Positions 27,235 to 38,632 of a stretch of DNA of 49,314 nt are shown piece after piece (positions within the stretch are counted from its first letter, which is position 1; every line of letters begins with the position of its first letter). Both the position numbers and the translations under genes were made by a program. This stretch comes from Paludibacteraceae bacterium (GTDB lineage: Bacteria > Bacteroidota > Bacteroidia > Bacteroidales > Paludibacteraceae). Location of the stretch: NCBI GenBank assembly GCA_017558065.1, contig JAFYWK010000074.1:1-49314 (forward strand), read 5' to 3'. The notes below the pieces were generated by a model that was not told the DNA's origin, did no database searches, and worked only from the letters and a program-made list of their open reading frames with translations.

Positions 27235-28074
27235 TTAGAATATGCGTTGTGCAAAGATGGTGAGATAGTCCATCCAGTTCTCCCATGTGTGTCCGCCAGC
27301 GGATTCGTGGTATTCGTATGGATATTGCTTCTCATCTAAGTATTGGCGATAAACCACATTGTCCTGGTAGAGGAAGTCCTCTGCACCGCAGGCAATCCAA
27401 TAGAGTTGGGGTGGATTGGCAAACTGTTGCGCGAGCAATGCCTCTGTTTGTTGGTAGGCAGGCTTTTCTGATAGCGCCAAATCGCTGATTGCCAATGTAC
27501 GTTCTGCGCGATGCTCGCTCATGTATGGGACATATAGTGCGGAGAAGATACCCACATAATCAAACGATTGGTTGAGCAATGCGGCAGTGTGCATAGTGTG
27601 AAAACCGCCCATGGAGAGTCCTGCGATAGCGCGGTGCTGTTTGTCGGTGAGGGTACGGAAGTGTGCTTCGGTCCACGTGATGAGTTGGCTGAAGTTCTCC
27701 TCGAAGGTGCTTTCCATCCAGAGGCGTATCTCCGTTGGGTAGTGCTTGCCTGTCTGCTCAAGATAACCGTTGGGCATTACGACAATCATAGGTTGGCATA
27801 GCTGGTTGGTTATCAGCGAGTCGAGGATAGCTTTGGCTTTGCCTTTGGTAAGCCATCCTGCCTCATCGTCGCCACTGCCGTGCAGTAGATAAAGCACTGG
27901 GTAGTCCGTCTCAGAGGCGGCATATCCTGCTGGTAAATAGACTGCTACACCTGCCTCTCCGATGCTGGAGGGATAGGATGTTACGATTACTTGACTGGGT
28001 TCAATGGCTTGTTTCGCCTTTGGGCAACAACCCACACATACGATTAGCAGAGCTAATAGGATTTTGCTTTTCAT
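27235..28074 (-). CDS. Esterase-family lipoprotein (alpha/beta hydrolase)
   Basis: A 279-residue protein with a lipobox-like signal (LLIVCVG-C16), so probably anchored in a membrane. The body matches the putative esterase family (PF00756, S-formylglutathione hydrolase/feruloyl esterase type): VYLPAGYAASETDYPVLYLLHGSGDDEAGW, IVVMPNGY, the nucleophile elbow IAGLSMGGFHTMH, CGAEDFLYQDN with the likely Asp, and SAGGHTWENWMDYL with the likely His. In Bacteroidales such enzymes often act on acylated polysaccharides; the substrate here is not evident. It heads an operon with the peptide transporter and has a clear promoter. Confidence 0.88.
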   Translation of the reverse strand: MKSKILLALLIVCVGCCPKAKQAIEPSQVIVTSYPSSIGEAGVAVYLPAGYAASETDYPVLYLLHGSGDDEAGWLTKGKAKAILDSLITNQLCQPMIVVMPNGYLEQTGKHYPTEIRLWMESTFEENFSQLITWTEAHFRTLTDKQHRAIAGLSMGGFHTMHTAALLNQSFDYVGIFSALYVPYMSEHRAERTLAISDLALSEKPAYQQTEALLAQQFANPPQLYWIACGAEDFLYQDNVVYRQYLDEKQYPYEYHESAGGHTWENWMDYLTIFAQRIF

Positions 28075-28110
28075 ATTCTGTTATTTGCTTTGTTCATCCA
28101 TAAATCGCCG

Positions 28111-28141
28111 CAAAGTTACAAAAAAAAACTGAAACCACCAA
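28111..28141 (-). promoter_or_regulatory. Bacteroidota promoter for the esterase-POT operon
   Basis: Minus-strand TAACTTTG (28111-28118) and TTG (28139-28141), 20 nt apart; leader of about 30 nt. Confidence 0.75.
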
Positions 28142-28384
28142 ACAGTTGTGTGTTTTGTGGTGTATTATCGTGATTTTTTGTTTTTGAAGATAGTGTATTG
28201 TATCTCTATAATAATGCTGCAAAAAGTAGCGGCAATGATGAATAAAGTCGCCGCTGATTTGTGTTTTAGAGCTTCTAAAGTGCGATTGTTATTGCAAAGA
28301 CAAATTTTTGCTGTTGCAGCTACTTCTGCCGCTTGTTTGTTATTAGACGACAATGATTTGTTATTGGAAAAACAACATCAACAA

Positions 28385-28520
28385 CTTGCGCGGCAATCGT
28401 ACGCGGAGCAATCGTTCAACCGAAGGGAGATAAGAACCCTCTGCCGCGCTCAAGGAAAATAAATAATCAACAACATCAAATCAACAACATTGCGCTCGCC
28501 AACACCGCGAGCGCTCAAGG
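28385..28520. repeat. GC-rich hairpin repeat, copies 3 and 4
   Basis: Copy 3: CTTGCGCGGCA (28385-28395) pairs with TGCCGCGCTCAAGG (28442-28455) around a 46-nt loop. Copy 4: TTGCGCTCG (28490-28498) pairs with CGAGCGCTCAAGG (28508-28520). The inner stem sequences differ (GCGGC against GCTCG) but pairing and the 2-nt bulge are kept. Both are followed on the minus strand by GTTGTTGATGTTGT-like tails. They lie in the 28075-28731 gap, which otherwise shows short reading frames in both directions and no convincing gene. Confidence 0.78.
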
Positions 28521-28548
28521 AATTTCCCTATATATTATAGTTGTGCTG

Positions 28549-28670
28549 AATCTTCGGCGTTTTTGTGTTTTTGCGCCGAAGATTGGGGATTTTGAAAGAA
28601 AAATAGGTGCGAATGACATGCGGAAGTTGCTGTATTATAACAGCTTCTGCGTGAGTGTATTTTTTTTTGA
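28549..28670 (+). other. Two hairpins in a gene-free region, the second followed by a T-run
   Basis: AATCTTCGGCG (28549-28559) and CGCCGAAGATT (28574-28584) form a perfect 11-bp stem with a T-rich loop; the right arm recurs at 28697-28707. Next, 28618-28652 forms a stem with G-U pairs and a 3-nt bulge, and about eight bases later comes a run of ten T (28660-28669). This has the form of a + strand terminator, but no + strand gene is recognised upstream. Confidence 0.5.
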
Positions 28671-28731
28671 AAAAAGTTTGTGAGTGCCGAAGGTTGCGCC
28701 GAAGATTTTATTTGGGATTGCGTATCGGAAT

Positions 28732-29532
28732 TTATTGTTTTATGGGTTTGCTTTTAATAAATTTGTATTGCTGTTGAAATTTATCTAACAATACCATACA
28801 AGAGTGGAAATTTTCATTCTTGGTTTTTGCAGGGTCGGTTTCTGTATATGCAATATACATCACATCATGTGACAACATGGCATCTACCATATCTTGCCCA
28901 AAGTACACTTTTTCGCTGATAGATTCTTCTGATTGAATCTCCAAAGCATCTTCCCTTCCAAACGATGCACCATTTATATCGTCTATGCCTTTTGAAAAAG
29001 CAATAGCTACAAATACAACAGGATCGTCAGGCAGTGTAAGTGTCAAAAAATCATTTTCGGGCGATAAGACTACATCAAGAATGCTAACATGGTTCGCATC
29101 GTCATACTCTTCATACTTTATTACGGCTTGATTCAAGCATGAATAACCTAATGTTTCTAATGCTGTTGTATCGTAATACCAAGTCGTTATTACATTGGTT
29201 AATGGCATTAGTAGCGTGTCAATAGTAAATGTCACTTCTTCTGGAGTATTGATAGTTTCATCCATCATCAATTGCAACAAGGTGCATGCCAAACTCTTTG
29301 CGCCAATGCGAATGTTTATATCTGGATGATGTTCCACATGGCATTGCATCGTGTCAATCAGTTGTAGGATATCACCTTTCACTTCCATGATTGTGCGCGT
29401 ACTATCTAATGTGGCATGGAAGATGTGACTTAGCGTGGAGTCGGTTATGTTGTCTTGCTCAGAAGAGGTTACAGGTTTGGTGCAAGAGGTTGCAACAATG
29501 ACTATCAATAAAATAAGAATAAGCTTTCTCAT
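28732..29532 (-). CDS. Hypothetical lipoprotein
   Basis: A 266-residue protein with signal MRKLILILLIVIVATSCTKP; the cysteine after ATS fits a lipobox, so it is probably a lipoprotein. The mature part is acidic and mixed alpha/beta, with no motif I recognise; residues near the middle (DVVLSPENDFLTLTLPDDPVVFVAIAF) look like core strands. The base composition is AT-rich like the island genes upstream. It begins 17 nt after the coiled-coil island gene, so the two may be co-transcribed. The start two codons in (29532) was chosen because it begins the signal peptide directly. Confidence 0.65.
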   Translation of the reverse strand: MRKLILILLIVIVATSCTKPVTSSEQDNITDSTLSHIFHATLDSTRTIMEVKGDILQLIDTMQCHVEHHPDINIRIGAKSLACTLLQLMMDETINTPEEVTFTIDTLLMPLTNVITTWYYDTTALETLGYSCLNQAVIKYEEYDDANHVSILDVVLSPENDFLTLTLPDDPVVFVAIAFSKGIDDINGASFGREDALEIQSEESISEKVYFGQDMVDAMLSHDVMYIAYTETDPAKTKNENFHSCMVLLDKFQQQYKFIKSKPIKQ

Positions 29533-29549
29533 ATGCATGGTTATTTCCG

Positions 29550-30968
29550 TTAAATTAAATTGTTATATGAATAGTTGGCATCAATAATTCTTTTCTGACA
29601 TTTTTGAAGACTACTTAAAAATGATGAGCGTCCATGATATTCAGCAGAAATAGAATTGTATCGTTTAATTTGCTCTTGATAGAGCGATATAATTTCCTGA
29701 TATTTAGGAAACAATACCTTAAAATGTTCTAAACTTTCTTTATAGTCAAATTTATCTTTCTTCCTTCGTTCTTCTTTTGTCAAAAAGAATTCTGCTTTTT
29801 TATCCCAATAGGATTTTTGTTTTTCGATTTTATCTAATTGTGTTTTTTCTTTATTGTATATATCTTTAAGTTTGTTTACTTCATATTCTATACTTTCAAT
29901 TTTAGAATTAAGTGTTGGTAAAATAGTATTGTTGATATTCACAACTTCTTTGATGTATGATAATAATTCATCATTATATAGTGTCAATTCAAAGATGTTT
30001 TTAACAAACAATAATGCTCCAGATAGCTTTTCCGCAACAAAATTAAAACCTCTTTCTTCTTCTGTGATATTGCTACTATAATTGGAGAACGCATCAACAT
30101 TATATACTTTTAAATACTTTTCCTCTTTTGTTGGTCGGATGCTTTTTAAATAGAAGTCAGTATTTTGGTAGAAATCATTGAGACCACTGATCATACTCCT
30201 AAATTCATCTATTAGCCAATTTTGTATGAAATCATCTGGTGATGAGGTAATCATATTGCTAAATTGTATAACAAACATAATCAGTTTTTTCCAATTTTCT
30301 CTAGCAGGAATATATCTCCGTGTGCACTTTATAAATGATTCTGCACGGGCATAGTAATAGGTAATATAATCAGAAAGTGGTGTTAATAAGCAGTCCTTAT
30401 ATTTTATGGCTACATTCAGATATGATGCAGAACCATAACAAAAATTAGTTTTAACAAGCACATCAATATCTTCCGTTATATTCCATGCAAATGTATCCCA
30501 TCCTATTGATTCTGTAGAAAGCAATCTAATAGAAGAATCTATTTTTATATCTAGCGTAACGCGTCTATAAGCTGCTGCATATAAGCCTCTCAAAACATCT
30601 TTAGCAAAAGATTCTTTTTGTGTTTGATTTAATTGCTTTAAATATTTTTCTGATTTATATTTAGGAATGCTTCTGTAATATTCATCTTCTGTTAAAATAT
30701 TGATTTTTACATGTTTGTTAATATCAATATAACTATCTTGATATGCGAATAGGTGGGCGTATTCAGATGTGTATTCTCGAATAAACCCGTTTTGTATAAC
30801 AAGATTTTGCAAATCAAGTAATGTGTAGTTTTCGTTATTTACATAGTCACAAATTTTATTAACTAAAGATTGATTAATATTCATTGGTAACTCTTCGTAC
30901 TTGAGTTGTCCATTTGCTTCACGAATAATGCTAATGGATTGATGATTTATGATAGGTAAGGTAAGCAT
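29550..30968 (-). CDS. Island protein with C-terminal coiled coil, function unknown
   Basis: A 472-residue protein, no signal peptide. The N-terminal 110 residues look globular and tyrosine-rich. The middle (about 120-260) contains GLYAAAYRRVTLDIKIDSS and CYGSASYLNVAIKYKDCLLTPLSDYITYYYARAE, which reads as a conserved folded domain I cannot name. The last 150 residues are a K/E-rich coiled coil (VNKLKDIYNKEKTQLDKIEKQ). Codon use and composition are strongly AT-rich, as in the helicase operon upstream, from which it is separated by 140 nt without a clear promoter. It may belong to the same system or be separate island cargo. An internal ATG at 30884 is an alternative start. Confidence 0.6.
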   Translation of the reverse strand: MLTLPIINHQSISIIREANGQLKYEELPMNINQSLVNKICDYVNNENYTLLDLQNLVIQNGFIREYTSEYAHLFAYQDSYIDINKHVKINILTEDEYYRSIPKYKSEKYLKQLNQTQKESFAKDVLRGLYAAAYRRVTLDIKIDSSIRLLSTESIGWDTFAWNITEDIDVLVKTNFCYGSASYLNVAIKYKDCLLTPLSDYITYYYARAESFIKCTRRYIPARENWKKLIMFVIQFSNMITSSPDDFIQNWLIDEFRSMISGLNDFYQNTDFYLKSIRPTKEEKYLKVYNVDAFSNYSSNITEEERGFNFVAEKLSGALLFVKNIFELTLYNDELLSYIKEVVNINNTILPTLNSKIESIEYEVNKLKDIYNKEKTQLDKIEKQKSYWDKKAEFFLTKEERRKKDKFDYKESLEHFKVLFPKYQEIISLYQEQIKRYNSISAEYHGRSSFLSSLQKCQKRIIDANYSYNNLI

Positions 30969-31108
30969 AAGTTAATGTTGGTATAAAGTTTAGTTGAATA
31001 AATGAAGATAGATGATTGTGCAATCTTTATGGATAAACCATTATGGCGGATTATACTCCCACAATTATTTTATATCTTCGTTAATAGGAAACTTTATTAT
31101 CGTTTATA

Positions 31109-32155
31109 TTATCCTATTATGCTTTCTGAATCTAAATTAAATTTTGCTAGATTCTTTTGGACAACCTCTTTGCTTGTGTTTGCATAGCAATAAACACAAA
31201 GATGATTACATGTATTGTACATACCAACATCTTTGCTTACCATGCAACCACAAATTTTTCTCTGTCCCTTGTCTTTTAAGTTCTTTCGAGAAACAGGTAT
31301 TTCTGGTATCTCTCCAAACAAATCAGGTGTAGGTAACTGTCCTGTTCTCAAATAATAGACCAATTCCTTATCCTCGCTCCAAAGTTTTTCCATTAACTCT
31401 CCATCTATACAGCGATTATGTTCTATGCCGTATTTATCATAATCAAACTCTTCTGCACATGTTGCGAATTGTAGATTCCAACCTTGATTATTCCACTCTT
31501 GGCGGATTTTACAGAGTCCATCTATGATTTCACCGCGTTGCACTTCTGTAGGTTCTGCCATTTCAATCGTTTCACGAGTAAAACAGGAGGTTTCTTTTAC
31601 TAAATTATTTTGCACTTTACGATATGATTTAACATCCACGAAACTAAATACTAGTTTATCCGTAAAGTTCTTAAGCTGATTTCCTATATTCGCAATTCGT
31701 TTAAGATGTTCTTTAGGAGTCAAAGTCTTGGTAATAATGATAGGATCATATCTCCATATGACACGCTCTTTTCCTATCAATTTAGATAAGTCTTTGAAGG
31801 TTTCTATGCGTTCTGAAAGTGATGGTACATTTGGCTCAAAACCTTCTGCAATATAGTCATTTAATGTCACTTGAAAATAATAATGTATCCCTCGTTTATC
31901 TAATTCGTGGAGATATGGTATAATTGGTTTGGGATTTTTTGTCCAAAAAACAATTACTTTGCATTTTGCAAATGATATATACATAGGCTTTTGATTGAAT
32001 GGATTATACCAGACACAATAGCCTTTCTCCAACCGATTGAAGAACCATTTTGCATAGAATGCAGGAATATCTGTAGAGCGACTTGCAGATATTATAACAG
32101 GAGCGGTTGCTTCTACCCTATTATCTAGATATGTGTTAATAAATATTTTGTCCAT
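31109..32155 (-). CDS. DUF1848 family protein with C-terminal cysteine cluster
   Basis: A 348-residue protein matching DUF1848: VIISASRSTDIPAFYAKWFFNRLEKGYCVWYNPFNQ at the N-terminus, VIVFWTKNPKPIIPYL, IHYYFQVTLNDY, RVIWRYDPI, FSFVDVKSYRK, and the C-terminal ICGCMVSKDVGMYNTCNHLCVYCYAN. The seven cysteines near the end (CGC, C, CxxC, C) look like an iron-sulfur or zinc site, and a radical-SAM-like chemistry has been suggested for relatives; I treat this as unproven. The chosen ATG overlaps the stop of the upstream 609-residue gene (TGATG), so translation is probably coupled and the two functions linked. A longer reading (to 32215) is less likely. Confidence 0.85.
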   Translation of the reverse strand: MDKIFINTYLDNRVEATAPVIISASRSTDIPAFYAKWFFNRLEKGYCVWYNPFNQKPMYISFAKCKVIVFWTKNPKPIIPYLHELDKRGIHYYFQVTLNDYIAEGFEPNVPSLSERIETFKDLSKLIGKERVIWRYDPIIITKTLTPKEHLKRIANIGNQLKNFTDKLVFSFVDVKSYRKVQNNLVKETSCFTRETIEMAEPTEVQRGEIIDGLCKIRQEWNNQGWNLQFATCAEEFDYDKYGIEHNRCIDGELMEKLWSEDKELVYYLRTGQLPTPDLFGEIPEIPVSRKNLKDKGQRKICGCMVSKDVGMYNTCNHLCVYCYANTSKEVVQKNLAKFNLDSESIIG

Positions 32156-33984
32156 CACTTGTATATTGTTCTTAAATACTCTATGATAGTAGGAATGTTT
32201 ATTTGTTTCCAACAATCAACTACCCAGCTTTGTTTTTGATGTAATCGATTATTAGCATACATTTCAAATCTTTTAATGGTAGAATCATTATCTATTGGTT
32301 TATTAGCATAAAATATAGGTTGTCCCGATTCGTTTTTAAAATCATCGTGGTGATTATTTATAAACCATTCTAAATCTTTCTTAACTTGGTTTCTAACCTT
32401 GTTATCATGTGGCAATAGGTGTTTGATTACATTGTATGCATTAGAATCATTAATAAACAATTTGTTTTGGGGCATCACCGGTTGCACATCTATAGAACTC
32501 TTTGATTGTACTTGGAGCTGCTCTGAAAACAGGCTCAACTCAAGTTCTTTTGTGGCTTTAGTGGTGCGGGAAATCTCATTCCCAAAATGCTTCTTTAATA
32601 ATTTATATGCTGCATCCTTTGGTGACAAATAATCATCCAAGATATTCATGAAGGCTATAGGATTACCAACTTCTGACTCTAAATTAAGTGCGATTTCAAT
32701 AGAATTCCAATATTCTGGCTTCTGATTCTTACGACCTATAGACATATAGATCTTCCGTATTTCATCTTGGAAGTCAGAAAAAGAGTTATATACATTGTGA
32801 TTTTGAAGAAGTTGTTCTTTTAGCTTCTTATAGATATTCGTTTTAGGACTAATTAAATTATTTAATATCAGTAGAAATGCTTCTGAATCAAATTGACGAC
32901 TCTCAACATTAATTGCTCTATCTATACTCTCCTTTTTTTTATCCGAAAGTTCTGATTGTGAGAGTACTTCGTATACCTCATCTCTTAATTTTGGATTAGT
33001 AGGTGTAGTCAAATCTTTATCTTTAATCTCTATACTATCTACTGGAACATGTGATATATTTATACCAATACATTGGGTAAGATGTCTATAATGTGTCTTT
33101 ATAAATGCATGATTTAAATTATGTGTAAAACACTCCGTAAAGGTCTTAGGCATGTCTGCATATCCAAAAACCATACCTGCAATAGCTAATGACTTATGAA
33201 GCGAAGGTATTTCAGAATTAATGAGATAATCTTCTAATTTACCGAAGTCATCAGGGTCACCTTTCTGACAAAAAGCAGCGTATGCAAGAAAGTCTTCATC
33301 ATCATATGAATTGATGTTAAATTCGGTATGAGATAGAAGGTTATTATTTAAAGCGTTCAAATAGCCTCGTACAACGGAAAATTCTTCTTCTGTCACAATG
33401 CTTTTGTACTGTTTGCAGATAGCAATAGAGAACGAATAACGATTGTCTATAAAATCCAAGCTATTATATATTTCCTTCATTGTTTCTCTGTAAACAAATT
33501 CTAAAAAGCCAGATTCAGGAATGCCCGTTAATGTACTTTGTTGTATAATTGGCATTTCATCAATATTTGGATATTTTTGTCCTCGCAATGCGTTAATATG
33601 CTGTAGGATGTTATTTATATGTTGTTCTTTATATTCGTTATCACAGGTAACACTAAATCTATGCAATAAAAGAGGCTCTACCTGATAAGTCTCAGGAATG
33701 TGCTTTTGATGTTTCCAATCATTATACCATCCATGTGATATGATATAATTTAAGATGTCTCCTTCTATTCGATATTGTTGAGAGTCTTTAGCTATAGCTT
33801 CCTCTATCATCTGTTTTTCGTTACTTTGTTCGCGAAGAACCTTGTTCAAACTGTCATAGAGGGTTTCAATGTACAATGATTGATTAATAGGATTGTGCGT
33901 GTTCGTTAGAGCAGAATCTAGGACATCACTAAGTTGGTTCGTCAGATGATATAATTTCACGACAGAGTAAGACATATCTTTCAT
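32155..33984 (-). CDS. Large island protein, function unknown; possibly the 3' part of a frameshifted gene
   Basis: A 609-residue soluble, mostly helical protein with no motif I can name. Polar helices run through the first 200 residues; the last third includes a segment KNESGQPIFYANKPIDNDSTIKRF. The start at 33984 has a good ribosome-binding sequence (AGGAG, 2 nt before ATG), which is rare in this window. It overlaps the preceding gene's end by 56 nt in another frame. The N-terminal helices (SVVKLYHLTNQLSDVLDSAL) read as a natural continuation of the preceding protein, so the pair may be a single gene split by one frameshift, real or from sequencing. The stop is shared with the DUF1848 start (TGATG). 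Confidence 0.7.
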   Translation of the reverse strand: MKDMSYSVVKLYHLTNQLSDVLDSALTNTHNPINQSLYIETLYDSLNKVLREQSNEKQMIEEAIAKDSQQYRIEGDILNYIISHGWYNDWKHQKHIPETYQVEPLLLHRFSVTCDNEYKEQHINNILQHINALRGQKYPNIDEMPIIQQSTLTGIPESGFLEFVYRETMKEIYNSLDFIDNRYSFSIAICKQYKSIVTEEEFSVVRGYLNALNNNLLSHTEFNINSYDDEDFLAYAAFCQKGDPDDFGKLEDYLINSEIPSLHKSLAIAGMVFGYADMPKTFTECFTHNLNHAFIKTHYRHLTQCIGINISHVPVDSIEIKDKDLTTPTNPKLRDEVYEVLSQSELSDKKKESIDRAINVESRQFDSEAFLLILNNLISPKTNIYKKLKEQLLQNHNVYNSFSDFQDEIRKIYMSIGRKNQKPEYWNSIEIALNLESEVGNPIAFMNILDDYLSPKDAAYKLLKKHFGNEISRTTKATKELELSLFSEQLQVQSKSSIDVQPVMPQNKLFINDSNAYNVIKHLLPHDNKVRNQVKKDLEWFINNHHDDFKNESGQPIFYANKPIDNDSTIKRFEMYANNRLHQKQSWVVDCWKQINIPTIIEYLRTIYK

Positions 33985-34555
33985 AACTCCTAATTAGATA
34001 TGCCAAGTAAAATCCCTTAAGTTTATTTATTCTTCTATCAAAAGCAATATGATTAGAGAAGTCTTTTCCTGATTCTCTTAAAAGAGAATAATCGTATTTC
34101 TGAACTTGTATAGGATTCTTAATCGGGAAAAATGATTTAGCATACAATCGTGTCATTTTAGTAGTAAGACTGCGTCGTTGTGAAGAATACACAACACGAT
34201 AGTTCGCATCATTATAGAAGAAGAAACCGCAACTATATGGTGTAATATAGATAGTTTGATCACAATAGTATATACCATCTATACCTGATTCGTAAAATAG
34301 TTCTTCATCGTAGCATGAAGTGTCTATCCTGATATAGATTGGGAAGTTCTCTTCGTCTGTTGAAGGAATATGAAATTCAGGAATGTTTTGATATAGAGCA
34401 ATACGATCATTCAGTTTGTTTGCTTCTACACGAAGGAATCTTTTCATTCCAAAGTTTCTTCGTTCGTAGAATCCAGCAGGTGAGATTGACTCACTTGACA
34501 TTATGCTGTTAAAATTCTGCGAACAAGTTGGTATGTATAAGTGTTTAGGTGTCAT
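33929..34555 (-). CDS. Island protein 'LYIPT', function unknown; possibly the 5' part of a frameshifted gene
   Basis: A 208-residue protein starting MTPKHLYIPTCSQNFNSIMS, then SESISPAGFYERRNFGMKRF. I recall proteins with this opening (a short strand, IPT, and SESISPxxFY) as larger single-chain proteins near NERD and helicase genes, but know no function. The body is beta-rich with a hydrophobic strand YSCGFFFYNDANYRVVYSS and ends in a helical segment INKLKGFYLAYLIRSYER. The start overlaps the helicase stop as ATGA, so translation is coupled. At the 3' end the frame closes at 33929 inside the next gene. Confidence 0.68.
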   Translation of the reverse strand: MTPKHLYIPTCSQNFNSIMSSESISPAGFYERRNFGMKRFLRVEANKLNDRIALYQNIPEFHIPSTDEENFPIYIRIDTSCYDEELFYESGIDGIYYCDQTIYITPYSCGFFFYNDANYRVVYSSQRRSLTTKMTRLYAKSFFPIKNPIQVQKYDYSLLRESGKDFSNHIAFDRRINKLKGFYLAYLIRSYERYVLLCREIISSDEPT

Positions 34556-35649
34556 AACTCTTCTGCTTCTAAATTATGGAGTGATGTTTCATATAATGCT
34601 GTTGGTATCGCATCAAAATAGGAAGATAATTCTGATGAATACATAATGTATAAAGACTGATAGGTTCTTGTCATTGCTACATAAAGAGCATTCTTTTTTG
34701 TCTTCTCGCGTTCTAAATCAAAGGTTGCTGCACCATCACAACATTCTGGTAAAAATACGGTTTCAAATTGTAATCCTTTTGAGCTATGATATGTCATTAA
34801 TTTGGGGTTAGAAGAGTTAAAGTTCAACTCTATTTCCATATCGTCTCGTATCCTAGATTCTACATTATAACCTTTATTTTTAAGATAAGAATCGGCATCT
34901 TTAACTAAAGAATTCGTAGGAAAGAGAATACCTACATCTTCAAGGTTACGATTCTTAATAATTTCCATTATTCTATCTAATTGTTCATGGAAAGATGTAT
35001 ATTTTAGAACATATGGCTTTTCACGCCCTTCATTAGTGCAACGATCTTGCAGTTCATCGAATTCAGAATTGATATATTCTGCAACTGCAGCTATTTTCTT
35101 TGGCAAGCGATGATTAAAGACAAGTTGATCATCGGGGAATCCTGTTACCAACTTAAGTTCTTCCATATTCGCGTTTTTTTTATCTTTAAGGAACTTATAC
35201 AATTGTTGTGCCGAATCACCATATAGAAGCATCGCTTTTTTTGCATGTTCTTTCATCATTAAAATATCTTCACAAGAAAAATCTTGCGCTTCGTCCACTA
35301 TAATATAATCATAATCCCCTTTTTTCCATCCTGTACATTCCCATTTACCCGTTTCATCATCTCGTTCCCAGCCAAGACATTTATTAAAACTCTCTACGCA
35401 AGTAGAATTAAGTCCTACCTGTTTGATACCATCTTTCATATACTGACGCAGAGATTTTGTGTAAACGACAAACAATAAATCGCCTTTCCCTTCGTCTTGA
35501 ATTTGCTTTGCCTTCCATAAAGCAAGAATAGACTTACCACTACCAGCACAACCTTTAATGATGCAGGACTTGTCTGTTTTACGATTGATTACCTTCAATT
35601 GATAATCATCCAACTGATCTTCTTTTACAAAGAAATTTCTTTTTGCCAT
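34552..35649 (-). CDS. SF1 (UvrD/Rep-like) helicase, compact form
   Basis: A 365-residue ATP-dependent helicase or translocase. Motifs in order: Walker A GCAGSGKS (33-40), Ia FVVYTKSL, Walker B VDEAQDFS (118-125), motif III GDSAQQLY (144-151), motif IV NHRLPKKI, motif V TYHSSKGLQFETV (286-298), motif VI YVAMTRT (323-329). It is about half the size of UvrD because the 1B and 2B inserts are minimal; this compact form is seen in proteins paired with nucleases. It begins 2 nt after the NERD-methyltransferase stop and overlaps the next gene by 4 nt (ATGA). A role in unwinding or moving along foreign DNA or RNA with the NERD nuclease is inference. Confidence 0.9.
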   Translation of the reverse strand: MAKRNFFVKEDQLDDYQLKVINRKTDKSCIIKGCAGSGKSILALWKAKQIQDEGKGDLLFVVYTKSLRQYMKDGIKQVGLNSTCVESFNKCLGWERDDETGKWECTGWKKGDYDYIIVDEAQDFSCEDILMMKEHAKKAMLLYGDSAQQLYKFLKDKKNANMEELKLVTGFPDDQLVFNHRLPKKIAAVAEYINSEFDELQDRCTNEGREKPYVLKYTSFHEQLDRIMEIIKNRNLEDVGILFPTNSLVKDADSYLKNKGYNVESRIRDDMEIELNFNSSNPKLMTYHSSKGLQFETVFLPECCDGAATFDLEREKTKKNALYVAMTRTYQSLYIMYSSELSSYFDAIPTALYETSLHNLEAEEL

Positions 35650-35651
35650 AG

Positions 35652-37790
35652 TTATTTAGTTTTAATTTTATACGCATCTAGTATAGTACCATTACCATTG
35701 GACTTAGAGTACTTGCATAAACAATCATTCAACTCGTTATTCCGATTACTATTGATGAGATATTGATAATCTCCATCAACATCTAAGTGTAAGTGATTGA
35801 TAAATTGTTTGTGTGAAACAATACGATATGCAACCTTGCTTATATCGTTATTTTTTCTACTGTGTCTAACAGAAAATTCCTTTTGAGTAAAGCAGGGTAA
35901 CATACAATCATCATTATACTTCGCACAACACAGTGGAAGCAAAACTCCTAATTTTGGCTGCTTGCGCAGAGCATCTCTAACGCCCATGTTTAGTAGTTGA
36001 GAATAATACTGATTATCTGTTTTTGATAATGTTGTAACATCCAAAACCAAAAACATTCCCTCTGTGGAAAGTAATTTCCCAAATAGCGTTAGTAATAATT
36101 GATAGGGATTAGCCATTTTACATATTCGGCGCGACTCTAACTCGCAACCGAATTTACACATTTGAATAAAATCAAAATGTTGGGTATTGTAATGTTCTGC
36201 TATCTTTTCAATGTCATCCGTACAGCCGATAACATTCTGCACTGTAGTAATTGTATATTCACGACGAGATTTTTTTGTTACATAGGCTGCAATCTCTTTG
36301 AATTTCTCCAGAGAGAAGGCATTTCCATCTATCGCTTCTACCTTAAATTTCACATTTGTAGGAATATACTTTTCTAAAACTGTTAGCAGCCCTACTAACT
36401 CTCCACCTGTTCCACAACCCAAATCCAAAATATGAATTTCTTCTTTTTCTTTGATTAACTCAATGAATTTCGAGTTTTTACATAAGTCATCGTATATACA
36501 AAAGGCTTCGGCATAACTTCTAGGGAAATAGGTTCCTAAATAATTTTGTACTTCGTCTTCAGAAAGGTCTAAATTGAAACTGTGTTTTTGATAATCTGGG
36601 TTGTATTGTGCTCTTAGTTTTTCGAATATTAAACGATCTAACCATGACGGAAGGGAAGTATGTGATTTTAACTTTTCTACGACAGGCAAAACATCCGCAC
36701 TTAGCGTTGCTTCGCTCTTGACTAATGCCCTATTACCAACTTCATGTACTTCTTCGACAATAGGCATTCCTATTTCAAATGTTAAGTGGTCGGTAGTTGC
36801 TTGTACATCTCGTTGCAACAATTTGCGTACTTTATCTACAATCGAAAAAGCATTGGGAATTTTGATAATAAGAAACCACTGTCGTTTTGGGCGCAAATCA
36901 GGGAAAGTCGCTCTTAAGTTAGCATCGTCATATCGATAAACATTGAGTGTATAATCAACTTTACCACAAATTTGCTTGATAAGTTTTTCGATAAATATTG
37001 ATAAGCTATCTATTTCGGATTGAGTATCCTCGTCTATATCCTGTTTCGGATTAGACTTGCTTCCGCGGTTTTCGAATCTTTTTGGTTCAACCACATCTTC
37101 TTCAAGAGCCTCATCCAAAATCATTATATCCGAATCTGCATGAAAATCTACAGCAGTTTCTTTAGGAGAATAATTTTCATCTAGGCATTCCAAATCACTA
37201 TATTCCTCTAAAAGGTATCTGCGATCAAGATACAATGATTTAAGCAATGCAAGAATCTCCTTATGCTCAAACTCAATGTTTTCAGATGTAATGTCCTGTA
37301 CCTTCTCAATGAATGAAGTATTATCAGCTATATGTAACCAACACTTGGTATCGGGCGTTAGTCGAGAAGAATCAATCGCCTCTATTGGTTGGTTGAAAAC
37401 TACTAATGAGTTCAGATTTTGAACTTGTTTATTCGTTAAATGAGCCGTTGTTTTCAGCCCTTTTTTTGCCTGACTTCGATTTAACGAAACTTGTTGATAT
37501 ACTGTTTTTTTAGATCCTCCTTTTATGATTGTACCATCAGAGAGCATCCACTCTCCGTTATCTGCTGCAATAATTTTGCCGCCATAGTTCTTAAACTCAA
37601 CAGCAATGATAGCGTCATTCTTGATAATAAACCCATCTAATTCAACATTTCCGATGTTGAAATTGCCTATAAAAATACATGTATGTGACTTGTTGCCATA
37701 ATATTCTTTAAGAGATTTACATAATGAGCGAAACTGCTCTCTTTCAGCTGTGTGATTGTAATCGGAGAACCTATAAACAAGCAATCCCAT
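35652..37790 (-). CDS. NERD-type nuclease fused to an SAM-dependent methyltransferase
   Basis: A 712-residue protein. The N-terminal ~180 residues are a NERD/PD-(D/E)XK nuclease domain: D52 (VELDGF), E65 and K67 (AVEFKNYGG) form the core, followed by GGKIIAADNGEWMLSDG. A less conserved acidic linker (about 200-270) precedes a mixed domain. Residues 452-580 carry a Rossmann methyltransferase: motif I ILDLGCGTGGEL (454-465), acidic residue in EAIDGN (485-490), and a later strand MFLVLDVTTL. Downstream is a cysteine group C621-C622, C629, C633 that may bind metal. It leads the operon from the promoter at 37836-37866. The nuclease-methyltransferase fusion is unusual. The methyltransferase target (DNA, RNA or protein) cannot be told; no typical DNA-methylase DPPY motif is seen. 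Confidence 0.85.
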   Translation of the reverse strand: MGLLVYRFSDYNHTAEREQFRSLCKSLKEYYGNKSHTCIFIGNFNIGNVELDGFIIKNDAIIAVEFKNYGGKIIAADNGEWMLSDGTIIKGGSKKTVYQQVSLNRSQAKKGLKTTAHLTNKQVQNLNSLVVFNQPIEAIDSSRLTPDTKCWLHIADNTSFIEKVQDITSENIEFEHKEILALLKSLYLDRRYLLEEYSDLECLDENYSPKETAVDFHADSDIMILDEALEEDVVEPKRFENRGSKSNPKQDIDEDTQSEIDSLSIFIEKLIKQICGKVDYTLNVYRYDDANLRATFPDLRPKRQWFLIIKIPNAFSIVDKVRKLLQRDVQATTDHLTFEIGMPIVEEVHEVGNRALVKSEATLSADVLPVVEKLKSHTSLPSWLDRLIFEKLRAQYNPDYQKHSFNLDLSEDEVQNYLGTYFPRSYAEAFCIYDDLCKNSKFIELIKEKEEIHILDLGCGTGGELVGLLTVLEKYIPTNVKFKVEAIDGNAFSLEKFKEIAAYVTKKSRREYTITTVQNVIGCTDDIEKIAEHYNTQHFDFIQMCKFGCELESRRICKMANPYQLLLTLFGKLLSTEGMFLVLDVTTLSKTDNQYYSQLLNMGVRDALRKQPKLGVLLPLCCAKYNDDCMLPCFTQKEFSVRHSRKNNDISKVAYRIVSHKQFINHLHLDVDGDYQYLINSNRNNELNDCLCKYSKSNGNGTILDAYKIKTK

Positions 37791-37835
37791 TGTATTAAAT
37801 TTAAGTTTAAATCAGTTTGTGTTATTTTGCGACCG

Positions 37836-37866
37836 CAAATATACAACATTTTTTTGATATGGACAA
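37836..37866 (-). promoter_or_regulatory. Bacteroidota promoter for the NERD-helicase operon
   Basis: Minus-strand TATATTTG (37836-37843) and TTG (37864-37866), exactly 20 nt apart; leader about 40 nt. It shows that the island operon uses the host-type primary promoter. Confidence 0.75.
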
Positions 37867-37927
37867 ATAAAATCGCAGAAATTGTTAAAATTATGCAATT
37901 TTCATGTTTAGAGAACGAGTTGATAGT

Positions 37928-38020
37928 ATAAAACTTTAGGAAACGAGACAACCTTTTCAGGAAGAGAGTCAATCTTGTTAGGAAATGAGTAAACTTTTTT
38001 AGGAAGCAAGACAACCTATA
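37928..38020. repeat. Degenerate direct-repeat array (AGGAAnnGAG)
   Basis: Four diverged units of about 24 bp, each starting AGGAA and containing GAG or AAG, ACAA/TCAA, and CTT: AGGAAACGAGACAACCTT, AGGAAGAGAGTCAATCTT, AGGAAATGAGTAAACTTT, AGGAAGCAAGACAACCTA. The array is just upstream of the island operon promoter. Confidence 0.65.
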
Positions 38021-38028
38021 AAAGAAAG

Positions 38029-38283
38029 CAATCTTAATAAACAGCACTTTTTGTGGCAAGGAGTTGAGTCGAAGTTCTCTCGGTCGTCTCTCGGAGTTCT
38101 CTCGGTGGAATGAGGCAAGGTGTAAGAGAGGAGAAAAGAATGGCAATCTTAATAAACAGCACTTTTTAGTGGTTGGGAGTTCTTAGGTAGTTCATTGGTT
38201 CATCTTTGGTTCTTCGTTGGTCTTTAATAGTGCGCTTAAATACAAGGTACAAAGGAACAGAATCTTAATAAAAGTGCTTTTTT
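38029..38283. repeat. Three dispersed AATCTTAATAAA...GCACTTTTT motifs
   Basis: AATCTTAATAAACAGCACTT (38030), the same at 38145, and AATCTTAATAAAAGTGCTTT (38261) lie 115-116 bp apart. Between them are other low-complexity words (gttctctcgg, three times in 38065-38105; ggttc words in 38185-38225). No coding sequence is seen. Confidence 0.7.
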
Positions 38284-38612
38284 AGAGATAAGATATACAC
38301 GGCGGACCACCGCCGTGCACATGACAGACTGCGGGAACATAACTACCCAAAGACATGAACAACTGTGGGAACATAAATCCCCCACAGACATGACAGACTA
38401 AAAGTACTTTTTTGGGGTGGAGAAACAAGGATACACACGGCGAACTACCGCCGTGCACATGACAGACTGCGGGAACATAACTACCCAAAGACATGAACAA
38501 CTGTGGGAAGATAAATCCCCCACAGACATGACAGACTAAAAGTACTTTTTTGGGGTGGAGAGACAAGGATACACGCGGCAAACTACCGCCGTGCACATGA
38601 CCGCCTATAGGA
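38270..38612. repeat. 138-bp tandem repeat, about 2.4 units, next to ilvE
   Basis: The motif CCGTGCACATGAC starts at 38313, 38451 and 38589, giving two exact 138-bp periods. Each unit contains a hairpin (CACGGCGG-ACCA-CCGCCGTG in unit 1), a second hairpin TGTGGG...CCCACA, and an AAAAGTACTTTTTT palindrome. Within a unit, CATGACAGACT occurs twice. The units differ at a few bases. Since 138 is a multiple of three, an open frame runs through on the minus strand (46-residue repeats); I regard it as incidental. The array reaches to 20 nt from the ilvE stop. Confidence 0.88.
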
Positions 38613-38632
38613 ACGCAGGAATAATTCGAATA

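Follow-up and report, generated by a model that had tools for sequence, protein, structure and literature searches.

Whether the co-directional genes at positions 31,109 to 37,866 of contig JAFYWK010000074.1 (Paludibacteraceae bacterium, assembly GCA_017558065.1) form an undescribed defence system, and how such a system would act, is the question raised by this locus. The whole stretch of DNA analysed, 49,314 nucleotides long, is hereafter called the window. A preliminary description, made from the sequence, had proposed a defence or mobile-element system of five genes with a NERD nuclease joined to a methyltransferase. A conserved, probably defensive operon, undescribed in the sources searched, is indeed what the present analysis supports well, given the recurrence of the complete set in relatives, its BREX (bacteriophage exclusion) neighbours, its mobile-gene context, its position in an insertion and the lack of a PADLOC model for one of its proteins; the five genes and an essential NERD nuclease had to be given up. 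The operon encodes a methyltransferase protein (MT), a small superfamily 1 (SF1) helicase (HEL), a protein here called U and a DUF1848 protein. Taken as a whole, the explanation that we favour by a little is a mobile and modular defence operon with a HEL-U core, a pair of proteins probably acting through S-adenosylmethionine (SAM) and an exchangeable nuclease; slight as it is, we can give it this preference because it leaves the substrate open.

Four co-directional genes and their occurrence in relatives

A profile of the MT domain was run over 84,980 species genomes, with 185 pattern matches and 110 relatives as the outcome; the best 80 relatives were kept (L numbers below). These loci are selected by a methyltransferase pattern, and loci without MT are under-sampled; furthermore, L049/L050 and L044/L045 are near-identical rows, and L036, L055, L078, L099 and L103 are the same contigs as loci from earlier genome searches. 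In this search for conserved neighbourhoods, which the preliminary description had suggested, all four genes are found together on the same strand in 74 of the 80 loci, hence well outside the window. The order MT-HEL-U-DUF1848 is seen in 70 of the 80, if genes that are split or duplicated, additional helicases and contig ends are allowed for, and MT-DUF1848-HEL-U in four (L032, L061, L067, L069). As for the incomplete loci, contig ends truncate five (L036, L074, L080, L088, L101) and L035 displays no DUF1848 within the 1.2 kb remaining. Median gaps are 4 nt between MT and HEL (n = 75), 3 nt between HEL and U (n = 81) and -8 nt between U and DUF1848 (n = 70). The titles of the loci are nearly all Bacteroidota, the exceptions being a Helicobacteraceae (L046), a Chloroherpeton (L033) and an "uncultured bacterium" (L087).

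The genes are also inherited together. Over 66 loci the pairwise distances correlate with r = 0.84 for HEL-U, 0.64 for MT-U and 0.52 for MT-HEL, and with 0.06 to 0.29 for the pairs that include DUF1848. Correlation as such is expected in any stable operon; it is the low values for DUF1848 that are informative. In the same loci U is the most diverged protein (mean identity 24%) and DUF1848 the most conserved one (66%).

The distribution is patchy. A search with the 208-residue piece finds U in 6 of the 200 family genomes; at the level of the phylum, U is present in 4 of 395 genomes, and at that of the order, 5 of 393 match the MT profile strongly (E < 1e-50), the genome of the window being included in each count; generic-looking methyltransferase matches with E from 1e-4 to 1e-7 and a partial match in G748 (2.2e-12) were not counted for MT. 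Pairs of HEL and U that lack MT and DUF1848 are seen as well (L010, L021, L022), and a search with DUF1848 gave an extra MT-DUF1848-HEL-U set in L184, beside a gene reading like a type I restriction methylase. In L185 (30-8820), MT-DUF1848 is present without HEL-U in the 9 kb fetched and is followed by NB-ARC/TPR, EAD1/EAD11 and EAD1-trypsin genes. In L022 (4653-7748), read by eye, XRE- and ImmA-like genes precede HEL-U and ThiF/E2-like genes are close.

Single-sequence scans of genome contigs and of IMG/VR gave no matches, and profile scans of IMG/VR matched one contig. On a faecal contig from a phage collection (L195), MT-HEL-U-DUF1848 adjoins an integrase-like gene. A plasmid search returned no match for the 609-residue U piece, the U or the MT of L024, or two 2CompART proteins (see below); with NERD-MT it returned 38 records, 37 of them Acinetobacter, and among the matches listed only the NERD region was matched.

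Most of what had been read from the window itself holds. The five frames lie on the minus strand at the expected positions (Table 1), joined in order by 2 nt, an ATGA overlap, a 56-nt overlap and TGATG. The first joins a NERD nuclease (Pfam, E 6.1e-7) to a methyltransferase fold (E 3.7e-6), the second is an SF1 helicase (Pfam UvrD-type, E 2.6e-15) and the last is DUF1848 (Pfam, E 4.9e-95), for which a TTG at 32215 is a possible alternative start that gives a longer frame. The single upstream promoter is borne out by a motif that a pattern search finds at 10 sites in the whole window against 0.91 expected by chance. The AT-rich composition is confirmed too, the proportion of G and C (GC) being 0.30-0.38 in the 1-kb bins from 28001 to 38000 and 0.41-0.53 in all other bins of the window, as are the repeats at the edge, which lie between ilvE and the operon (38284-38601; a 138-bp tandem repeat, 2.3 copies, 94% match).

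Table 1. Positions of the operon and of associated features in the window
Feature	Positions	Strand	Basis	Remarks
NERD-methyltransferase (MT) frame, 712 aa	35652-37790	-	Pfam, structure model	
Small SF1 (UvrD/HelD-like) helicase (HEL), 365 aa	34552-35649	-	Pfam, alignment	
U, first piece, 208 aa	33929-34555	-	single-frame relatives, hhalign	N-terminal domain
U, second piece, 609 aa	32155-33984	-		mostly helical, conserved G-x3-G motif, variable C-terminus
DUF1848	31109-32155	-	Pfam	C-terminal CxC and CX3CX2C; ATG at the TGATG junction
Bacteroidota-type promoter, TTTG-N20-TATATTTG	37836-37867	-	pattern search	some 45 nt upstream of the first start codon
AT-rich island with the operon	28001-38200		GC	inside an 11.3-kb insertion
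Two more island genes (268-aa lipoprotein-like, 472-aa coiled-coil-like)	28732-30968	-		

Protein U and its probable relation to ADP-ribosyltransferases

The two frames to which no family had been assigned are pieces of one gene, U. Indeed, the 208- and 609-residue frames are matched by a single frame of 709-799 residues in five relatives of the same family, and whole U proteins in relatives have 509-823 residues. In L008, the nearest relative, residues 1-192 match the first piece and residues 194-498 the second, and the match leaves the first piece at residue 190 and enters the second at residue 2; as it passes between the pieces at the 56-nt overlap, a frame change is placed near 33,984. Since U is one gene in relatives, the operon comprises four genes, so that the five-gene reading is ruled out although its five frames are all present. 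The split in the window may be real, a sign of decay or an assembly error in what is one draft genome. Other split genes are U in L089 and L097, the helicase in L038 and DUF1848 in L048 and L097.

No match to U below E 0.01 was obtained in Pfam, NCBIfam, PADLOC or PHROGs, the best library match being at chance level (E 0.014); the NCBIfam and PHROGs scans covered the window proteins. An alignment of 72 of the 73 U proteins of at least 500 residues (A8) displays N14, E/D22, P26, Y30, R33 and K131 as residues kept in relatives. The structure model of U, built on 72 sequences, has a predicted local distance difference test score (pLDDT) of 89.7 and gave no match to viral structures at E <= 0.001.

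A relationship is suggested by proteins with the Pfam domain 2CompART (PF22546, "2-Component system ADP-ribosyltransferase domain"). In L172, DUF1848 is followed by a helicase and by a 591-residue protein carrying 2CompART (E 3e-25), and in all four neighbourhoods fetched (L172, L188, L193, L194), one of them with DUF1848, a 2CompART protein directly follows an SF1 helicase. With hhalign, the first 165-200 residues of U align end to end with the four 2CompART proteins over about 110 columns (P 0.0016-0.0026), and the middle of U aligns over 21-46 columns at invariant glycines (P 0.0002-0.0019), collinear with the N-terminal match. The null set consisted of 201 unrelated 150-column windows taken from 79 unrelated alignments, and of those 79 alignments whole; none reached the observed scores. 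Indeed, the N-terminus scores 25.2-25.5 against a best null value of 20.5 for windows and 21.4 for whole alignments, and the middle scores 28.2 with an equal-length window against 22.6, and 29.4 with a longer template against 23.1 for whole alignments. Judging from these alignments, U and the 2CompART ADP-ribosyltransferases (ARTs) likely share an origin.

The arrangement of the 2CompART pairs resembles that of the operon, an SF1 helicase being followed by a protein that combines an ART-type domain with a G-x3-G body, and L172 also carries DUF1848, placed first. The pairs differ in that PF22546 has no match to U, and in place of MT their neighbours are a protein of roughly 500 residues and, in three of the four sets, an AlkB-like gene. 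The order in L172, L188, L193 and L194 is SF1 helicase, 2CompART protein and then the roughly 500-residue protein, and the sets of L188, L193 and L194 end with a gene that reads by eye like an AlkB-type dioxygenase, which suggests repair of an alkylated or ADP-ribosylated base. In the open-licence literature searched, no description of helicase-2CompART pairs was found.

DarT, the DNA-directed ART toxin of DarTG, was also compared. A T-x3-N spacing is common to DarT and U; according to PMC9967889, T15 and N19 of DarT hold the NAD ribose. Thermus DarT has the highest Foldseek probability (0.87) among the 50 matches listed for the U model. DarT differs from U, which has no significant profile match to it, no conserved Glu and no DarG partner, and U as DarT proper is ruled out by the profile comparison. 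An ARH-type hydrolase was rejected for the middle region of U, where Foldseek gives ARH3 a probability of at most 0.57 and a root-mean-square deviation of about 20 A.

Several results weigh against an ART-derived U and, with it, against the explanation that we favour. The HH probabilities for 2CompART are just 6-46%, and the template consists of four sequences. Pfam 2CompART is absent from the U pieces of the window (E <= 1) and from seven other U proteins (E <= 0.5), and PF22546 was found in none of the genomes G000, G028 and G099. The Foldseek match to DarT is not significant (E 0.56, with a modest template modelling score of 0.43 of the target), ARH3 matches with lower E values (0.19 and up) rank above it, and hhalign of U with nine DarT sequences gave a probability below 1%, likewise not significant, with no Pfam DarT match. 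Finally, the position nearest to the canonical ART glutamate, a candidate equivalent whose identity is unproven, is occupied by Glu in 41 of the 72 U proteins; the U of the window has Thr there. Given how poorly this position is kept, catalysis may be lost.

The same evidence bears on an abortive toxin, in which U would resemble DarT as a toxin of nucleic acids that HEL loads and infection sets free, with MT and DUF1848 restraining it or repairing its damage. Such a toxin would fit the ART relation of U and the AlkB-like gene, a repair dioxygenase by eye, in the 2CompART operons L188, L193 and L194; it is rendered improbable by the poor conservation of the candidate catalytic Glu and by the lack of a macrodomain or NADAR partner among the window operon proteins in Pfam.

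Methyltransferase, helicase, DUF1848 and attached nucleases

The MT frame of the window consists of NERD (residues about 1-205), a linker domain (about 250-345) and a class I SAM methyltransferase (about 371-712). The catalytic PD-(D/E)XK residues D52, E65 and K67, named in the preliminary description, are present and are kept in all 14 rows with NERD in alignment A9, which holds 49 of the 79 MT proteins of the loci and that of the window. The MT model (pLDDT 87.0) matches class I methyltransferases (best Foldseek E 1.7e-8). Among the 50 matches listed of 1532 these are small-molecule, cap-N7 (mRNA) and rRNA/tRNA methyltransferases, and M.BseCI, at rank 38, is the sole DNA methyltransferase. 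A strictly conserved GTYFPRS block precedes the SAM site, and a Lys and a Glu after strand 4 are invariant (50 of 50); the putative motif IV, in our reading, is SFKA in most rows, with the K in 50 of 50.

DNA amino-methyltransferases are marked by DPPY or NPPY and others by a PCQ motif. None of these motifs is found in MT across A9, nor is any DNA methyltransferase Pfam family; without the usual amino-methyltransferase motif, the set is not plain restriction-modification. A restriction-modification-like system, where MT, with DUF1848, would mark host DNA and HEL-U with NERD would destroy unmarked DNA, would account for the presence of MT in every sampled locus, MT being however the search query, and for the variety of nucleases attached to it. 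It would also follow the logic of BREX and DISARM (defence island system associated with restriction-modification), in which modification, helicase and nuclease are combined. We nevertheless hold it to be doubtful, in view of the missing motif, of the HEL-U pairs that lack MT, and of structural matches which lie mainly with methyltransferases of other substrates than DNA.

The nuclease varies from locus to locus. Of the 80 loci, 13 have NERD fused to MT, as do the window and the IMG/VR locus L023, so that NERD is not essential: the fusion previously described is real, and NERD is no constant part of the set. A PIN domain is fused to the opposite end of MT in L035 and L037, and a YhcG PD-(D/E)XK gene lies upstream of MT, overlapping it, in L084. 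In L060, L062, L068, L071, L073 and L076, a DUF6035/CoiA-nuclease-type gene is found directly upstream of MT at -10 to 48 nt; the six form one BLAST cluster, of which L060 and L071 were scanned singly, and DUF6035 is matched in 6 of the 116 flanking genes scanned. These proteins have roughly 1000 residues, with coiled-coil-like, DUF7830, DUF6035/CoiA-nuclease and WG-repeat parts. In L029 (7766-9955), a Piwi-domain (Argonaute-like) gene lies 16 nt upstream of MT-HEL-U-DUF1848; among the 116 flanking genes, 6 matched the PADLOC pAgo model, the Piwi gene of L029 being the only one of these looked at singly. On a tree of 80 helicases, effector and BREX labels need at least 17 changes, a figure which includes the BREX label (4 rows) and comes from a quick method with many weak forks and no shuffled-label control; on the same tree NERD alone needs at least 6 changes and CoiA alone 4.

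HEL carries Walker A, DEAQ, KGLQF and YVAMTR in the window, and among 75 relatives Walker A is found in 73, Walker B in 73, motif V in 70 and motif VI in 64. In DUF1848, CxC and CX3CX2C are present in 69 of 69 relatives, at the C-terminus and not at the N-terminus; CX3CX2C resembles the Fe-S motif of radical-SAM proteins, hence use of SAM is predicted. The gene is frequent beyond the set as well, 24 of 149 genomes from the order having one, and therefore looks recruited. Stand-alone DUF1848 genes, read by eye, sit in housekeeping-like neighbourhoods in L173-L177, L180, L182, L183 and L186. DUF1848 has no mention in the open-licence literature searched.

Single components match catalogued systems. 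HEL matches the PADLOC models GajB, Nhi and NERD+UvrD, as in Gabija; GajA is the OLD/TOPRIM partner of GajB, and no GajA domain is found among the operon and island proteins scanned (Pfam, PADLOC). Residues 1-190 of the window protein, the NERD region, match positions 1-191 of the 917-position model of PADLOC PDC-M16 component A, the remainder of which has no match in the window. The DUF1848 component of RTasDUF1848, in which PADLOC places DUF1848 with reverse transcriptases, is matched with E 3.1e-40, whereas no reverse transcriptase domain is found among the operon proteins (Pfam, PADLOC). A catalogued system was thus rejected, as PADLOC (2023), NCBIfam, PHROGs and Pfam yield single-component matches only, and no PADLOC model matches U. 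Among the matches listed from the open-licence literature searched, none describes the operon, a scope which makes description elsewhere possible. That no named system has this content accordingly stands as far as PADLOC and this literature go, and is qualified by the partial catalogue link through the distant Pfam 2CompART.

Genomic context and proposed role

The operon of the window lies inside an 11.3-kb insertion (27287-38632) between PTR2 and ilvE. In 12 same-genus regions, PTR2 and ilvE are adjacent in seven, a divergent PTR2 is adjacent in two, another 6-kb insert is present in one and two are uninformative. BREX operons enclose or immediately precede the genes of some relatives: HEL-U of L021 is found between a PglX-like gene and PglZ-BrxL, and the sets of L032 and L067 directly follow PglX-like, PglZ and BrxL-type genes (Pfam). 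In L069, the set comes after a gene reading BrxL-like, and two larger upstream genes have no Pfam match. The operon differs from BREX in that the scans of its proteins and those of the island show no PglZ, BrxC or PglX.

From 156 candidate flanking genes, 120 were chosen by distance and a size cap and 116 were scanned, three open-ended frames and L088:546-2138 being left out. Among the 25 commonest families listed are SLFN_AlbA_2 (11 of 116), Mob_Pre (4 of 116) and BrxL (3 of 116); SLFN_AlbA_2 proteins, identified with Pfam in L050 and L027, also occur in two BLAST clusters of nine loci each. Several copies sit amid genes that look like those of recombinases or mobilisation proteins; in Bacteroides xylanisolvens XB1A (L050), the set is found, by eye, among recombinase- and mobilisation-like genes.

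Given this context, it is likely that the operon acts in defence, its targets being phages or other mobile DNA. HEL-U might be the core that engages nucleic acid, for which we see an even chance: HEL would most likely translocate on invading nucleic acid and present single strands to U, a fast-evolving protein with a probably ART-superfamily-derived, 2CompART-like N-terminus, a long helical body and a variable end, which would bind them and perhaps ADP-ribosylate or otherwise modify them. More tentatively, MT and DUF1848 may form a SAM-chemistry pair acting on a conserved substrate, because DUF1848 evolves slowly; they would probably modify a host substrate, marking self or keeping the complex quiet, or process the product. 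The attached nuclease, in the window the NERD fused to MT, may with equal weight on either side serve as the effector.

To the points already raised on U must be added that the copy in the window may be non-functional because U is split, that most loci show no recognised nuclease beside MT, 52 of the 80 tree rows bearing neither an effector nor a BREX label, and that the majority of the scanned flanking genes have no recognised role in defence, their defence-gene counts lacking a random-neighbourhood baseline and thus giving no enrichment figure. A bolder version, in which a helicase would feed an ART-derived protein, MT and a permuted radical-SAM protein would carry out a new SAM-dependent modification of nucleic acids or nucleotides and an interchangeable killer (NERD, PIN, Argonaute-like, CoiA-like or YhcG) would complete a new immune machine, appears unlikely. 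Least probable is a routine operon for DNA or RNA repair or maintenance, riding on mobile DNA; the HelD/UvrD-like HEL and the free-standing DUF1848 genes of several genomes agree with this reading, which is at odds with the patchy spread of MT and U, the junction closed in most same-genus regions, the exchange of nucleases and the fast divergence of U.

Should the favoured modular operon indeed serve in defence, then such a system recurs in Bacteroidota of the gut and rumen and is carried by named strains, B. xylanisolvens XB1A among them; it would join ADP-ribosyltransferase-related proteins, radical-SAM-like chemistry and interchangeable nucleases, and would give DUF1848 a context for testing its chemistry.

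As for the remainder of the region, no RNA element reached the gathering score between 27000 and 39500. The two other AT-rich island genes were rejected as members of the set, having no tblastn match in 89 loci (E <= 1e-3), and the esterase that neighbours them has a match in one of these loci, L058. Within the genus the ilvE-PTR2 junction varies, with two different inserts in two genomes, that of the window (27287-38632) and L135:2232-8222.

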